This document shows positions 13,436 through 56,562 of a stretch of 64,000 nt of DNA, in pieces; positions within the stretch are counted from its first letter, which is position 1, and each line of letters opens with the position of its first letter. This DNA comes from Tubulanus polymorphus (Eukaryota; Nemertea; Palaeonemertea; Tubulaniformes; Tubulanidae), in contig NC_134029.1 of NCBI RefSeq assembly GCF_964204645.1, positions 20,788,450 through 20,852,449 of the forward strand. Reading direction: 5' to 3'. The notes under the pieces are model-generated. The model was given only the letters and a program-made list of their open reading frames with translations, did no database searches and was not told where the DNA came from. Position numbers and translations under genes: made by a program.

Positions 13436-15717
13436 TTATTCTGCCTAATTCTGATTTTGGAAATAACTATATTACAAGGTTGAAGATAATTTTACAATAT
13501 TTGGTCTTTTTTTATGTAACTAGTCCGAAAGTTTACAATGTTTAATAATTTTGTCTAACTTTAATTTTTTTGGTCGTTTTCACCGTTTAAAGTCGAAGCA
13601 CATATTAAGTGACTGATTGGGGTTAACTTTTTTCCTGCCTAATTTAATACATCAAGATTTTGGAAATAACTATATTTTACGATATTTGGTCTTGTTTTCA
13701 TGGAACTAGTCCGAAAGTTTACAAGGTTGAATAATTTTATCTATTTTTTTCTGCCTAATTGTATACATCGAGATTTTGGAAATAACTATATTTTACAATA
13801 TTTGGTCTTTTTTTCATGTAACTAGTCCGAAAGTTTACAAGGTTGAATAATTTTATCTATTTTTTTTCTGCCTAATTTAATACATCAAGATTTTGGAGAT
13901 AACTATATTTTACAATATTTGGTCTTTTTTTCATGTAACTAGTCCGAAAGTTTACAAGGTTGAATAATTTTATCTATTTTTTCTGCCTAATTGTATACAT
14001 CGAGATTTTGGAAATAACTATATTTTACAATATTTGGTCCTTTTTTCCATGTAACTAGTCCGAACGTTTACAAGGTTGAATAATTTTATTTTTTTCTGCC
14101 TAATTGTATACATCGAGATTTTGGAAATAACTATATTTTACAATATTTGGTCTTTTTTTCATGTAACTAGTCCGAAAGCTTACAAGGTTGAATAATCTTA
14201 TCTATTTTTTTCTGTCTAATTGTATGCATCGAGATTTGGGAAATAACTATATTTTACAATATTTGGTCTTTTTTTCATGTAACTACTCCAAAAGTTTACA
14301 AGGTTGAATAATTTAATCTATTTTTTTTTCTGCCTAATTTAATACATCAAGATTTTGGAAATAACTATATTTTACAATATTTGGTCTTTTTTTCATGTAA
14401 CTAGTCCGAAAGTTTACAAGGTTGAATAATTTTATCTATTTTTTTCTGCCTAATTTAATACATCGAGATTTTGGAAATAACTATATTTTACAATATTTGG
14501 TCTTTTTTTTCATGTAACTAGTCCGAAAGTTTACAAGGTTGAATAATTTTATCTATTTTTTTCTGCCTAATTGTATACATCGAGATTTTGGAAAATAACT
14601 ATATTTTACAATATTTGGTCTTTTTTTCATGTAATTAGTCCGAAAGTTTACAAGGTTGAATAATTTTATCTATTTTTTTCTGCCTAATTGTATACATCGA
14701 GATTTTGGAAATAACTATATTTTACAATATTTGGTCTTTTTTTCATGTAACTAGTCCGAAAGTTTACAAGGTTGAATAATTTTATCTATTTTTTTCTGCC
14801 TAATTTAATACATCGAGATTTTGGAAATAACTATATTTTACAATATTTGGTCTTTTTTTCATGTAACTAGTCCGAAAGTTTACAAGGTTGAATAATTTTA
14901 TCTATTTTTTTCTGCCTAATTGTATACATCGAGATTTTGGAAATAACTATATTTTACAATATTTGGTCTTTTTTTCATGTAACTACTCCGAAAGTTTACA
15001 AGGTTGAATAATTTTATCTATTTTTTTCTGCCTAATTTAATACATCGAGATTTTGGAAATAACTATATTTTACAATATTTGGTCTTTTTTTCATGTAACT
15101 AGTCCGAAAGTTTACAAGGTTGAATCATTTTATCTATTTTTTTGCTGCCTAATTTAATACATCAAGATTTTGGAAATAACTATATTTTACAATATTTGGT
15201 CTTTTTTCATGTAACTAGTCCGAAAGTTTACAAGGTTGAATAATTTTATCAATTTTTTTTTCTGCCTAATTTAATACATCGAGATTTTGGAAATAACTAT
15301 ATTTTACAATATTTGGTCTTTTTTCATGTAACTAGTCCGAAAGTTTACAAGGTTGAATAATTTTATCTATTTTTTTGCTGCCTAATTTAATACATCGAGA
15401 TTTTGGAAATAACTATATTTTACAATATTTGGTCTTTTTTTCATGTAACTAGTCCGAAAGTTTACAAGGTTGAATAATTTTATCTATTTTTTTCTGCCTA
15501 ATTGTATACATCGAGATTTTGGAAATAACTATATTTTACAATATTTGGTCTTTTTTTCCATGTAACTAGTCCGAAAGTTTACAAGGTTGAATAATTTTAT
15601 CTATTTTTTTTCTGCCTAATTTAATACATCGAGATTTGGGAAATAACTATATTTTACAATATTTGGTCTTTTTTCATGTAACTAGTCCGAAAGTTTACAA
15701 GGTGGGAGAATATTGTC
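13436..15717. repeat. Satellite array, about 19 monomers of 113-117 bp
   Basis: Head-to-tail monomers each contain CTGCCTAATT, TACATC(A/G)AGATTTTGG, AAATAACTATATTTTACAAT, ATTTGGTC, a T run, CATGTAACTAGTCCGAAAG and TTTACAAGGTTGAATAATTT. Monomer starts fall near 13751, 13868, 13983, 14096, 14211, 14330, 14446, 14562, 14679, 14796, 14912, 15028, 15145, 15263, 15378, 15494 and 15612, preceded by two more divergent copies. Two subtypes (TTGTATAC versus TTTAATAC after CTGCCTAA) are interspersed. Differences are mostly T-run length and point changes, so homogenisation is recent. Confidence 0.95.
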
Positions 15718-15719
15718 TA

Positions 15720-16780
15720 ATTTTACTTTTTTGTCATTTTCACCGTCTAATTTTTAAAAGTTTATTGTAGTTTTTCTCGAGTATGTCTGAAATCAAAGTA
15801 CATAATTGGGAAATTCGATTCCGGTTCATTCAAACTATCTTCCAATCAGTCTGAAACGGCAAGCAGAAGAAAAGAGCAGAACCTTTTGAGCAGAAAATCC
15901 TTTCAAATATCAATGATCATAATCATCATGTCAATTCATATATAAGATCAGCAATGTGGATCGATATGTAGATTTTAATAATAGTCTTACCGGTAAATGA
16001 TATCTATGAAATTGAACTCATATAGTAATTCATCTATATTCTAAATATCTAAGCAATGGTTGATTATTATAGTTTAACAACAATTCAAATAAAGCATCTA
16101 TAGTCATCTCTAGGAATACCAGAGTTACAACAAATTTAGTAATCCATAATCAATCTTATCAAATCGTTTTTGAACTGTTTTCTCTTCTATCTTCTTGAAA
16201 TTCTTGATGTGTCTTTTATTGAAACCCAGGCCCATCATACAGTGCAAACCTGCTAGTAATATTGGCATATATATATTTCGATTGTCAGCTAAACCATGTT
16301 GGTATTATCAAATTTACTTCATCGTCAGTTAATAAACTTAAGGGATGTTTTCTACCCACAGATGGCGACATCTGTACCCAGTGAATGGTATTCTAATCCA
16401 TTTCATTAATTCTAAATATTGCTCCTAAATTATACAATGATTTTGTAATTATGATAATATAACTAACTGAAGAGTGAGTGCGCTGCCAGCATTGAGCACA
16501 CTGATCCTATAAGTAACATGGTCCTACAGATTTAAGAAACCTCGAATCATTCCCACAACTCGACAAATCCAGAATTCTGCAAAGCCTTAAAGATTCAATA
16601 AATCCCACGCACAAGAGACAGAGTTAAAACATACCCAGTATTCTTTATATATCAATCAATATCAATATTAAATAATACAGTTGTCTTATCAACCCCTATG
16701 GTTTAGATTTGAGCACTTTTACCTTATATGAAGATGCTGAATTAGATACCTAATCAATTAGTTAATTGATAATGTCCTAG
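15720..16780. other. Noncoding AT-rich DNA after the satellite
   Basis: The first 120 bases repeat the left flank of the satellite (ACATAATTGG followed by TTCCGGTTCATTCAAAC). The rest shows no ORF, RNA gene or clear repeat that I can support. Confidence 0.5.
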
Positions 16781-24768: not shown

Positions 24769-27700
24769 TCAGGTTAAATCACCCTTCATTTGATTCAATT
24801 TAAGAGCTCTCATACGAGCTTTAATCTTCAACGCTTTGCGATAATCCTTGATGGCGATTTCTTTCAGTCCTTGTTTCCCTCTGACATCTGCTCTACGCAT
24901 GTAAACGACTGGATCGTCTGGCTGGATTGAAAGGGCTGAAACAAAAGGGGCAGTTTTTAACCAGATTTTTCATCAGGTATAATAAAGTTCACCTCAATTA
25001 TGAAGATGGCAAGGGGGTAAAGGTGAATTTAATGATAAATGACCTACAGTTATTTCTCATGAAAAAGCGCCATAAACGTAAACCCCTTTGAGCCTTACGT
25101 GAGGGCCTTGTGCATGGGTCTAAACCTCTGAGCCTTACATGAGGGGCATGTGCATAGGTCTAAACCTCTGAGCCTTACATGAGGGGCATGTGCATAGGTC
25201 TAAACCTCTTTGAGCCTTACATGAGGGGCATGTGCATGAGCTAAACCTCTGAGCCTTACATGAGGGCATGTGCATAGGTCTAAACCTCTGAGCCTTACAT
25301 GAGGGGCATGTGCATAGGTCTAAACCTCTTTGAGCCTTACATGAGGGGCATGTGCATAGGTCTAAACCTCTTTGAGCCTTACATGAGGGGCATGTGCATG
25401 AGCTAAACCTCTGAGCCTTACATGAGGGCATGTGCATAGGTCTAAACCTCTTTGAGCCTTACATGAGGGGCATGTGCATAGGTCTAAACCTCTTTGAGCC
25501 TTACATGAGGGGCATGTGCATAGGTCTAAACCTCTTTGAGCCTTACATGAGGGGCATGTGCATAGGTCTTAACCTCTTTGAGCCTTACATGAGGGGCATG
25601 TGCATGGGTCTAAACCTCATTGAGCCTAACATGAGGGGCATGTGCATAGGTCTAAACCTCATTGAGCCTTACCTTTTGTGAAATCTTGTTCAGCTTTGTC
25701 GTACTGTTGAAGTGAAGAATAAAGGTTTCCACGGTTGAGATACACGTGTGAAGACATCGGCATCAGTTGTACCGCGCAGATGAAATCCTTCATAGCACCT
25801 TCATAATCCCGAAGGAATGTTCGAGTAATCGCTCTGTTCAAGAACGCGCCTTCATCTTTAGGATTAAACTGCAGTGCTTTATTGTAGTAACGCTCTGCCT
25901 ACAATTAAAAAGGACGAAGATTGAAAAATTGACGATTACTTTGTCAAAAAGTACCAGGGGCCAGTTTTATGTACTGGTATCAAATTTAACCTAGGATTTA
26001 CTTAATTCATTTCCAATAAATAATTAATAACAAAAACTTAATATCATTCAAAGCTCTATAAAAAATATGAATTTTTTTTAACAGAAAACAGCGACTACCG
26101 GTAATCATAAAACTCTTTGAATAAAAATATTTTTTAGAATGAGGTGCCGAGACAGAAAATGATCGAGAACCATAGAACTCTGTTCGATAATGCGGTTCAA
26201 TAAGACGAATTTCAGATGATTGTCTTGTAACCCTAGCCAAATATCGAATCAACTGAGTTCACCCCCATAGTTTAGTTAATACCAGTCTACAAAACCGAGC
26301 CTTCCTTGTCGCTGATTTTTTCTCCTGATCCTTTACCTGTTTAAACTGTCTCATATGGAAATAGATATTGGCGGCGTTGAAGTAAGCGAGTGAATAAGTA
26401 GGATCTATCGTTATAGCTCGTTGGTAATCTCTCATCGCGTTCACCGGATCTTCCGTAAACTGATAAATAACGCCTCGATTCGTATAGATCTCCGCGGTTC
26501 CCAACACGGCTAACGAAGCGTTGATATCCTGCAGCGCTGCGAACGTATCTCTCATTTGCAAATTGATAACTGCTCGTCCTTCGAAAGCTGGCTGATATTC
26601 TACAATGCAAAAAATGTATATCGCAAATGTACGATGAATCACTGCTTGCTTTGGATCTTGCAGAAACAACTCATTTTCTCCAAGGCAACTGAATTCCCTT
26701 GGCAGCCGGAGTAACAATGCATTGTCATCACAATTTTCAATACATTCTGTCTGGGGTATGCAATAACCTGAGGCAAGGGGTTCCATTGCAATGAGTCTAC
26801 AGCATACCTAGCTATCTCCGGAGTTTAGGAAATTCACAGTCTGACTAGAATGGCATCTTAAAAATTATCTTTTCACAGGGTTACACCAGTATCGGTGTGG
26901 TGTTTCTCACGGATTCTTACTTACTTGGATTTATATTTATAGCAATAGTGAATTGGGTCCACGCTTGCATAAATTGACCGGTCATCTCTAAACTGTAGGC
27001 GAGGTTCACTCGCGCCGGTAGATACAGAGGATCGAGCTTTATACACCGTTCATAATCATGCCTGAAATACATCACACAATGTTCAATCCATTCCCGGGAA
27101 AATTCGTCGTCATTGTTTTCGTCGGTTTACGGTGAAGATTTCTATAGCCTACCTTGCACATGCGACTCCAGTGCGAGTACCAAAATCAAGGAATGCGTTT
27201 CCACGTCCCATGTAGGCATCGAGGAAGAACTGTTCCAACTCGATAGCTTTCGTGAAAGCACGAATCGCTTCTTCCAATCGTCCAAGTCTGAATGAAAACC
27301 GTAGCAAAATACTTAATAATCGTATCATTTGCTAATTGATAAGATGTGTCGCTGTTTCACCAATATTTCTTACTTGTGATAGCAAAGTCCGAGAGTGTGG
27401 TAGAGATGTACATCTTTCGGCTGCAGTTTGCAGGCGTAATCAAAATCGTACAGAGCATTGTTGTAATCTCCGTTTTCGAAGTACAATAAACCACGATTTA
27501 TCAGCACCTACGTATGTACAAAATCACAAATCACAACCGTTGCAAAATAAAGACTTGAACTAAAGAAGGAGATTTGAGTAGATTGAGAAGAAAGAGGCGA
27601 ATTTACCCTAAGTATCATGTCACTATCTAACAGTAGGACGATACCATAATCAACTAACGCCTGTAAGTATAAGGAAAACCGGTCTAGAAAACTTGCATGT

Positions 27701-33700: not shown

Positions 33701-36687
33701 GTGACCACTTTTGTATGACTTGTTTTTCTTCTGACTTTTCCCGGCTATTCCCTGACATGCTCATTGCTTTGACTCGATCTACTAAGAATCCAATCAGTTG
33801 ACTCGGTCAAATACATGTATGTAAAACATAGATGAAAACTGATTTTATGCGAGATCTGGCAATCTCAACAAATTTCCCTGATTTCCAGATAAGTGGCCAC
33901 CCTGAAAATGAAGGCATCTTACCCTTTTATTAAAGGCCTGTACAGTTTCGTATTTAGCCTGCGTAATATGCTTCCTCATAACTCCTTGTAGCTCTTTCGG
34001 CAGCTGATACTCGGAGGAGACCGAACAGAAATGATGAAAACTGGTGAAATCTCGCCCAGTTTCTTCCACCGGTATTTTACTCGACTCTTCTGCTGATGCG
34101 TCTTCTTCATCTATGCTGTCGAGCTTCGGCGGTTCTTGGCGTTGATGGAGAACTTGTTTTTCACCAGCGATGCTCACTAGATCTTCATGCGTAACGTCAA
34201 CTGGTAATTCAAAATCTCTTAAAATCTGAAACGGGAATTGGAAAAAATGAAAGTTGTGCCTTTTTACTGCATCATATCCAGCAGTTTGTAGCATTAACCT
34301 GCTCCATTTCCGATCTTTTTCTGAGCATTTCTTCCTCTTCCGCTTGCTGGATTCTGAGTTCTTCGGCTTTCTTCTCGGTCTCTTGCTGTTCAACTTCTTT
34401 CCTTATTTCAGCAAAGGTCTTTGCCAAAGCATCTTCTGAAGCTTGTGTCTCCTGCTCAGCAGCTTCATCTTCTTAAACGATATGAATTTTATAAACCGTA
34501 ATGATCGAGGTAGAAATACATTTGAAAATACAATCATTTTTCTACATTTATTACATTACCCTCTTCAGGTGTTTTCGCTTGTTCAATCTCTATTTCTGTT
34601 TCCTCATCTTGTTCATCCTGTTGCTGTTCACTTGTCAAACCTTCCTCAGTATGTTTATCAGAAGATTCTGAAAACAAGTATATGTATATGTATACAATAT
34701 GGTATATGTATACATATTCTTGTTTTTCCTAAGAATTCAAGTTGCAAAACTGATATCGGTGAACATACCATCGTATGGTGTAGATGGAGCTCGAGTCATC
34801 ACTCTGTCCATTATCTCTTTAATTTTACGATCCGACTCCGACATGCTAGAACGCAAATTCATAAAACAATTTCACCGCCGAACGTAAGAAGAACAAGAGA
34901 ACATTAATGGTAGCGAAGAGAAATCATCATCTTTCTTACACGTGTGTATCTTGCGTTTTCAACGACGAAATAATATCATCGACGGATCTGCCCTCGGATT
35001 TCAGAGCGGGAACGGGCTCTGATTTCGTCGATTGTTTCTCTTTCGAGGATCCTTTACCTGTTCCAAGAGATTTATAATTTAATGAAATTACGTACATCAA
35101 GTGATACATCGGTTTTTTCCAGTTATCTTCGATACCTTTTGCGCCATCTCTTCCCGACTGACTACTGATGGAATGTTTCTTAGAACTGTGACTTCTTTTA
35201 CCACTAGTGAGAGCTTTAGCTTCTTCGAGAAGTTCTTTACTGGATTTGACCTACAAATCAGTTACCCAATCATTCAAACTATCCATGAGCCAATAAATAA
35301 GAATAGCGTCTGTATTAAAGGTTTTACTTACTGAACTGCCACTTGAGACATAACTCTTTTGGTCATCTGGTTTTTTATCTTCAACATTTTGGTCTAACTT
35401 TGCTAAATCGACCTCTGAAATTCCTACTTTTGATCTCTTCGCTACAAATACAAGATATTGAATTTTCCATACATATTCAAAATGAACCATTTCAAGGAAT
35501 TCGGAGAAATGCTTTGACATACCTGTGCTTTTTCGAGTGAATCCTGAAATTGGTCTTGATGGAGGTTTTTGTCTTTCGGCTACTGGTACGGCAGCAATTG
35601 TCCCCGCCTGTGGTAGAATAGCTGGCTTACTCGGTATTGTGGCCAAATCTAACTTTGGACTCGATGACATCGGGGTCAAATATGCTAAAGTTGAATTAGC
35701 CTGAGAATGCAAGAAAATAAGGCAAATAAGAAGTGCCGAGATCAATAAATTCAAAATCCAAATCCCGACTGATCGTCACGAATTAAATTACCTTGTTGAT
35801 TTCTCCAATTGCTATATCGTCTTTTGAAATCGCCGACTGGCCTTGCATAAAGACTTTTAAATCATCTATCTTAGTGCTAAGATGAATAAAATGAATATAC
35901 ACACGATGAATGAGTGAATATCTGCTAAAAGCTTGGACTCTGAAACAAATCATGTAACAGAAAACGCTCAAAGACCATGAAAGAGATAAACAAAAATTAC
36001 CTGCTTCTTGATGGATGGACTCCTACCGATGTAACTTTTGGCTTTTTTAGCTCTAAAAAGCATAATTGCAGTTTTAAATATGGTAGGCCAACTATTTCAA
36101 ATCTTACAAACGCGATATCTTTACCTTCAATGGTCGTTTGATCTTTATTCAAATTAGGATAGGATTTTTTAAGTTCATCCGTTCCGGGTAATTTAGCGTC
36201 AGGCCCCTTTTCAAGTGGATTATAAGCGTCAGGTTTAACTTGTACATTATGAGGCTACACAAAATAGAAACGATAAAAAATTAGATCGAAGACTTTACGA
36301 CCAATGATAACTCGAAAACAGCTGTACCTACTTTAGGCGGAAATGGAATTATTGGGTCACGCTTTCGTTTCTTAATTTTCTTGGGAGTTTTGAATTCTTC
36401 TCTGATTTTGCTGAAAATATTTGATAGGAACGATTTAATAGGAAAACTTTTGAAAAAATATTCACGTCCACCACCACTGAACCCTAAGTTACTTACTTGG
36501 TCACATTGTCGGTTGTTGCGGCATTTTTCTTTTTTTCTTTGAGGGCAAGTTGAATTTCACCGATGGTTTTTCGTGCGACATTATCCAGTTCCTTTTTGAG
36601 TATCTGACTTTCTCTATCATTAACATTCAGGCGGAATGGTTTACTGACAAACTCACGTCTATCAAATGGTGACAGACCTCCCTCCAT
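24769..36687 (-). CDS. TTC6: Large TPR-repeat protein, TTC6-like (about 41 exons, about 2,100 residues)
   Basis: Exons chain in phase on the minus strand from an ATG at 36687 to a TGA at 24769. The N-terminal half (about 25 exons, 36687 to 30588) is charged and disordered, with conserved-looking islands FYWTPAPAKLDVAPARVKMH and EWVRDIWNEWFDEVFPP. The C-terminal half (from 30476) is some two dozen tandem tetratricopeptide repeats with the usual W/L-G-Y-A-F-A-P spacing, for example AHVNLGLIYYQLESYHRAVK and AYLSRAAYYGMKGQYSKAIL. Exon 29355-28346 alone encodes about 337 residues. Last exons are 26599-26337, 25898-25673 and 24935-24769. The TPR register and the SRAAYYGMKG/ILNCNEAI block recall TTC6, a poorly studied protein with cilium-linked expression; another large TPR protein is possible. 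TPR arrays bind partner peptides. The ATG sits just after an acceptor at 36699, so an upstream noncoding exon is likely. Confidence 0.8.
25088..25670. repeat. 41-42 bp minisatellite abutting a TTC6 5' splice site
   Basis: About 14 head-to-tail units, read on the plus strand as TGAGCCTTACATGAGGGGCA then TGTGCATAGGTCTAAACCTC with an optional TT. The array ends at the true donor of exon 25673-25898: read on the minus strand, the donor GTAAGGCTC is also the start of the unit, and nearly all units carry CATGTAAGGCTC. Two subtypes (GCATAGGTCTAAACC and the shorter GCATGAGCTAAACC) alternate in a block pattern. Confidence 0.95.
25957..26301. mobile_element. Fold-back element in TTC6 intron, CCAGTTTTAT family
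   Basis: The left end GGGGCCAGTTTTATGTACTG and the right end, read inverted as GGCTCGGTTTTGTAGACTGG, both continue into TATYAA-type sequence. They form imperfect terminal inverted repeats of about 24 bases. The interior of 300 bases has no exon. Related ends are found at 839-999 and 57890-57985. Confidence 0.55.
33697..33904. mobile_element. TIR element, CAGGGTGGCCAC family, copy 2 (TTC6 intron)
   Basis: It begins CAGGGTGACCACTT and ends AAGTGGCCACCCTG, 208 bp in total, the same size and ends as the copy at 22903. It sits about 20 bases inside the intron from the donor of exon 33924-34228, so it inserted close to a splice site without destroying it. Confidence 0.7.
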
Positions 36688-54606: not shown

Positions 54607-54955
54607 GGTAGGAATAATTTTGATGTCATGTTCTTTCCTCAAATAATAGATTCTGGGTAAGTTGCTAAGTGAATATGTTGTTTATCAAATTTCCTTGTGG
54701 TGGGTGGCAACTCACTACATTCTACATAACCCTTAATTGCTATTTACGGAAGCCAATAAATTTCTCAAAGAATTTTTGTAATGAATAAAAACTAATCAGC
54801 CTTAATTACCAATGACTCATTATGAAAACCGTTGGATTTTTCAAAAATTTCTCTATTACCTACAAATCTATTTTTCGCTTTTTTTTGCAGAAGAGTGTTG
54901 TAATTGTTGTATAGAAGCTGTCTTTGAGTAAGGACTTTGAAAAGAGCGATCGAAA

Positions 54956-56453
54956 ATGGGTGAAGAGGACGGTGCTGTAGTCGGTGTAAGATACACGAAC
55001 AACGGCGGAGATTCGGAAAATCTACAAGTCGAAACGAAATCTCCCGCTAAAAATCGTTTGAAAGGTTCGGCAGTCGGTGACAGCAGCAATATGGACGCCG
55101 CTCAGATTCCCGTTTCGAAGCGCCATCAAATCACGCTGTTCGAACGAGCAGCCGGAAGCTGGTGGAACCCGAAGTTCGATTCTCGCGTTCTCGAAAAGCA
55201 GCACCTGCTCAGCATATTCCCGCAAACGCGACGACGATTTCAATACGCCATGTTTTACATCATCGCGTCGTGCGCCGCTTGGGGCTTGTATTTCGCCCTG
55301 TGTGGCTCGGAAGCGAATTGGTTACTGTTCACGATCGCGTCCGCCGTTATGCTCGCCGTTTCCGTTGTCTTACTCCTCGTCACGTACACGAAATACTACC
55401 GCAAGTTTTATTTGATCGTGTCGATTATGATATCGTTGTTATTGTGCGCCGTATTGTTGGGTTCATTCCATTCTAAAGATCCCGATATTTCGGGTGTCGG
55501 CTCGTTCACGGGGTCGATCGCCCTGATCATAATGATGTACACGGTGATTCCGATGCCGTTGTTTTTGTCGGTTCTCATCGGCGGTTGTTATTCGGTCGGG
55601 TTCGAGGTACTGTCGATTTTTACTCACGGTATGAACGAATCGCAGCTGATCGTCGGGCGTATTCTGATGCACATCTGCATTCACATCATCGGCATACACA
55701 TATTCATCAATTTACAAGCGCGACAACGCAGCACGTTCTGGAAAGTCGGGCAGTCGGTGATGGCACGGCGCGATCTGCTCGTCGAGAAAAAACTCAAAGA
55801 CAAAATGATCTACTCGTTGATGCCGCCGTCGGTCGCGAAGGACGTCATCGAGAAAGCTCGCGGCGACAACGACGAGTCGATCCTGCCGAAGCGTCTGCGC
55901 AATCGCAAGAAAGGCTCGAAGGAGAAAGCGCAGATACGCTTCCGTCCGTTCACGATGTCCAGCATGAACGAGGTGAGCATCCTGTTCGCCGATATCGTCG
56001 GCTTCACGAAAATGAGCTCGAACAAAACGGCCGAACATCTGGTCGGTTTGTTGAACGATTTGTTTGGACGGTTCGACAAGTTGTGCACGGCCAGCGGCTG
56101 CGAGAAGATCAGCACGCTCGGCGATTGCTACTACTGCGTGTCGGGCTGCCCGGAACCGCGACCGGACCACGCCAAGTGCTGCGTCGAAATGGGCCGCGGG
56201 ATGATCGAGGCGATTAAACAGTTCGACGAGGACAACAAGGAGGAGGTGAACATGCGCGTCGGCGTGCACACCGGCACGGTGTTGTGCGGCATCGTCGGCA
56301 CGCGGCGTTTCAAGTTCGACGTCTTCTCGAACGACGTGACGTTCGCGAATCTGATGGAGTCGACCGGACGACCCGGTCGCGTACACGTATCCGAACTCAG
56401 CCTCGAATACTTGGACGATGAATACGAACTCGAAGAAGGCGAACCGGTCGATG
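54956..56453 (+). CDS. ADCY9: Adenylate cyclase type 9, first coding exon (partial gene)
   Basis: The exon encodes 499 residues plus one base and ends at the donor G/GTGAGTAC; the rest of the gene lies beyond the window. After a variable N-terminus comes the AC9-type motif ITLFERAAGSWWNPKFDS and FPQTRRRFQYAMFYI. Six membrane helices follow between about residues 98 and 253, then the C1a catalytic domain: VSILFADIVGFTKMSSNKTA, LLNDLFGRFDKLC, KISTLGDCYYCVSGCPEPRP, NMRVGVHTGTVLCGIVGTRR and FKFDVFSNDVTFANLMESTG. Both metal-binding aspartates (FADIVGF and LGDCYYC) are present. AC9 makes cAMP at the plasma membrane downstream of Gs and, in mammals, is largely forskolin-insensitive. The match to AC9 is closer than to other isoforms (LFERASSRWWDPKFDS-type block). 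The exon is GC-rich and unusually long, carrying the whole first membrane domain and C1a without an intron. Confidence 0.95.
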
Positions 56454-56562
56454 GTGAGTACACGTACTGCATGCACTAATTAACAAATAGTAATTGGTCG
56501 CGCGGCAATAACATCGATTTATACGCCGATAATTGAATAATGAATTATTCATTTTATATACA

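Follow-up and report, generated by a model that had tools for sequence, protein, structure and literature searches.

How is the correct 5' splice site chosen when the intron behind it is largely a tandem repeat, and unit after unit of that repeat opens with the same nine nucleotides as the intron itself? The question arises from a minus-strand TTC6-like gene of the nemertean Tubulanus polymorphus, contained in a window of 64,000 nucleotides (NC_134029.1, positions 20,788,450 to 20,852,449). The name "TTC6" was given by an initial annotation, and its basis here is TPR content only. In a gene model built from sequence alone, with intron positions set from reading frame and TPR continuity, 17 consecutive exons running from 30672 to 24769 are joined through GT-AG introns into one open frame. 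This chain of 1,025 codons is closed by a stop, passes through the junction bordered by the repeat and encodes a long TPR-built protein, with three TPR_1 stretches within its final 141 residues. The penultimate exon (25673-25898, 226 nt) ends in ...CACAAAAG; read up to the junction at 25673, it is ...TTTCACAAAAG followed by GTAAGGCTC of the intron. The junction itself falls within a TPR, and the last TPR is encoded in the last coding exon (24769-24935), which supplies about 55 residues and the stop. The open-frame exon chain thus lends strong support to the predicted donor of exon 25673-25898. A paralogous gene carrying the same intron was considered and rejected, the only matches being to the exons of the TTC6-like gene itself. 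Further upstream in the gene, a 78-nt segment (35058-35135) has GT-AG ends yet is open in frame, and could be either an intron or retained coding sequence, since the frame is kept by both reading and splicing; omitting its uncertain donor altered the donor scores given below only little.

The last intron (24936-25672) measures 737 nt, and 594 nt of these belong to a minus-strand 42-bp minisatellite that Tandem Repeats Finder (TRF) placed at 25079-25672 (period 42, 14.5 copies, 92% matches). The array reported by the initial annotation at 25088-25680 is therefore real, although both of its ends were off by about 8 bases. Its upstream (minus-strand 5') edge at 25672 is exactly intron position +1, the junction reading AAG|GTAAGGCTC with positions +1 to +9 at 25664-25672, which confirms that the repeat adjoins a well-supported donor. 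As had also been claimed, the decoys match the true donor from +1 to +9: the array holds 13 further copies of GTAAGGCTC, 12 of them after CAT and one after CAC, together with one GTTAGGCTC after CAT. The CAC-preceded copy (25090-25098) is the last in the array and lies nearest the acceptor; splicing from it would shorten the intron to 163 nt. Of the 14 full units, eight measure 42 bp and the others 39-41 bp. The units are 86-100% like the consensus and a multi-unit block of 162 bp recurs, which is the usual picture of array growth. The unit occupies a single locus in the 268-Mb genome; an origin from a dispersed repeat or transposon was rejected, as no other copy of the unit occurs there. A second large tandem array is present in the window at 13628-15724 (116 bp x 18, 94% matches).

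We compared the strength of the true site and the decoys with a position table built from 39 curated donors of the TTC6-like gene; for scoring, the true site was left out and the remaining 38 were used. The true site then reached 9.9 bits, above 89% of those 38 donors. The common decoy CAT|GTAAGG scored 7.8 bits, above 66% of the real donors of the gene, and the weaker variants CAC|GTAAGG and CAT|GTTAGG scored 6.7 and 4.2 bits. Sites scoring at least as high as CAT|GTAAGG number 12 in the 594-bp array, whereas elsewhere in the 12.3-kb gene region two such sites occur apart from the donors. Pairing with the U1 5' end AUACUUACCUG separated the two classes further, at -10.0 kcal/mol for the true site and -4.9, -5.1 and -3.1 kcal/mol for CAT|GTAAGG, CAC|GTAAGG and CAT|GTTAGG, respectively, these being simple duplex values without the U1 proteins. 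The duplex at the true site is stronger than at 37 of the 39 donors, and it exceeds that of the decoys because G at -1, and with it an unbroken 7-bp duplex, is found at the true site only. T at -1 does occur in real donors of the gene (4/39), each time followed by GTAAGT or GTAAGA. The same genome encodes the standard U1 5' end ATACTTACCTG in its U1 genes; at least 17 U1 snRNA genes exceed the Rfam cut-off (L010-L017, on contigs C3 and C10), 13 of them spread across 0.7-3.4 Mb of C10.

By these measures the decoys would be credible donor sites that are clearly weaker than the true site, and the true site is predicted to win over them. The proposal that the exonic bases discriminate is borne out by the difference between about -10 and -5 kcal/mol. 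The exon edge need not be the sole discriminator, since exon and intron length also differ for every decoy. The 13 weak decoys could jointly attract more use than any single one of them. We also asked whether the decoys are conserved among units. Variable cells were rarer in the decoy 9-mer than in the rest of the unit (1/126 vs 30/462, p = 0.007), and the difference faded to p = 0.14 and 0.23 when only substitutions or only variable columns were counted. Evidence for purifying selection on the 9-mer is therefore ambiguous, being significant only when indel columns are counted as independent.

The consequences of decoy use are largely set by the reading frame. Read-through past the true donor meets an in-frame TGA at 25659-25661, the immediate stop that had been pointed out before, and all 14 decoys lie behind it. 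It had also been remarked that most units are 42 bp, a multiple of 3; this is right for unit length, but only six of the 14 decoys would add a multiple of 3. For 13 of the 14 (25589 downward), the stop would lie 70-560 nt before the new junction. The usual 50-nt rule for nonsense-mediated decay (NMD) was established for mammals, and its hold in Tubulanus polymorphus is an assumption. Because of these distances, most decoy transcripts would be more likely to enter NMD than to yield a protein short of 55 residues. The expected loss of about 55 C-terminal residues thus correctly describes what the last exon encodes, including the last TPR, and probably not the product.

We consider it likely that this is an ordinary intronic minisatellite whose edge falls on a donor, and whose decoys are used rarely if at all. 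A locus-specific minisatellite would have grown in the last intron of the TTC6-like gene, its upstream edge meeting the donor. The U1 snRNP would have a much higher affinity for the true site than for the decoys, owing to the -1G and the unbroken duplex, and the true site would additionally bound an ordinary 226-nt exon; for both reasons decoy use should be low. The few decoy transcripts would run into the stop immediately, and NMD would degrade most of them. The array itself is probably neutral. Without the array the last intron would measure about 143 nt, inside the range of 79-194 nt that covers 13 of the 15 measured upstream introns (the other two are 325 and 438 nt), so that an ordinary intron appears to have been enlarged by the array.

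The words "seeded on" and "capture", used of this repeat at first, describe histories, and an abutment of this kind can also arise by chance. A sample of about 195 kb contained 11 tandem arrays with at least five copies, which extrapolates to about 15,000 arrays per genome; with 150,000 donors assumed, roughly eight exact abutments would be expected by chance, a figure that is an order of magnitude only because the donor number is assumed. No special seeding is then needed, although it may have occurred. No other array at a donor-like site was found in the 195 kb, itself a small sample. Arrays with a 31-bp unit turn up repeatedly in the sample, on several contigs (L031:1511-8274, with more than 200 copies, L038 and L039).

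The main challenge to low decoy use comes from intron length. In short introns, the sites closest to each other across the intron preferentially pair (PMC9225289), and the decoys near the acceptor would leave introns of 163, 203 or 243 nt, the first two close to the usual size in this gene, compared with 737 nt for the true donor. Distance and donor strength therefore oppose each other at the last intron. Intron definition might favor these decoys and yield NMD-prone transcripts in substantial amounts, the more so the longer the array. Against this, the decoys lack the -1G and by the duplex estimate pair with U1 about 5 kcal/mol more weakly, two neighboring introns, 325 and 438 nt long, are removed in the gene model as well, and selection against heavy mis-splicing would be expected. 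We regard this outcome as unlikely. A stronger form of the idea, in which the array acts as a natural length-variable switch, intron definition pitting acceptor-near decoys against a strong distal donor and repeat number setting the NMD-bound share, appears very improbable. The opposition of strength and distance nevertheless makes the locus a useful test, as the two can be compared within one intron of a gene whose introns are short.

RNA structure might instead mask the decoys on top of their weak sequence. Each decoy can place positions -3 to +2 in a 5-bp stem, ACAUG-CCCCU-CAUGU, that the true site does not have; the 15-mer hairpin has a folding energy of -1.8 kcal/mol, and under three settings most decoys had a lower local unpaired probability over -3 to +6 than the true site. 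These unpaired values are all low, however, at the core positions some decoys are at least as open as the true site, and the whole array folds no better than shuffled sequences (z = -0.74), leaving a masking role highly doubtful. Least probable of all is that the decoys help, the 13 U1-like sites strengthening definition of exon 25673-25898 through repeated downstream U1 binding without being cleaved, as downstream U1 binding can enhance the use of PAH exon 11 (PMC5933811), since the true donor as it stands ranks near the top of the gene's donors and does not obviously need help. PAH intron 11 likewise has a U1-like site downstream of the donor, but it is a single splicing-enhancing site rather than a repeat array (PMC5933811).

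Our preferred reading, an ordinary minisatellite with rarely used decoys, has a close precedent, and the arrangement is not as unusual as first thought. In intron 18 of human ABCA7, a 25-bp VNTR flanks the exon and its first GT is the canonical exon 18 donor, with later units starting alike; the donor of the next unit is used in about 2% of transcripts (PMC5954066). Decoy use there leads to a premature stop and NMD, as is predicted here, and the reference array is 592 bp long, compared with 594 bp at the TTC6-like locus. Among people the ABCA7 array varies between 12 and more than 400 copies, with measured transcripts and a disease link (Acta Neuropathol. 2018, PMC5954066). In contrast to that C-rich 25-bp unit, the unit described here is 42 bp long and is known from the sequence of one assembly. 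Minisatellite units of human IFI6 (G1P3, 6-16) also act as donors, downstream units giving further mRNA species (Turri, Cuin and Porter 1995, NAR 23:1854, as cited in PMC4526556 and PMC2572611). On those citing accounts downstream-unit use is documented in IFI6, whereas at the TTC6-like locus any transcript of that kind would immediately reach a stop. The miR-137 VNTR was set aside as a parallel, its novel donors lying outside the repeat. The TTC6-like locus is thus another case of a known layout, now in a gene unrelated to ABCA7 and in the genome of a different animal, and its general surprise value is modest; what it offers is a set of 13 almost identical competitors that are distinguished from the true donor chiefly by position -1. 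Elsewhere in the window, a plus-strand open reading frame of 512 amino acids (54941-56479) has adenylate cyclase 9 structures as matches for its cyclase domain (E about 1e-100).
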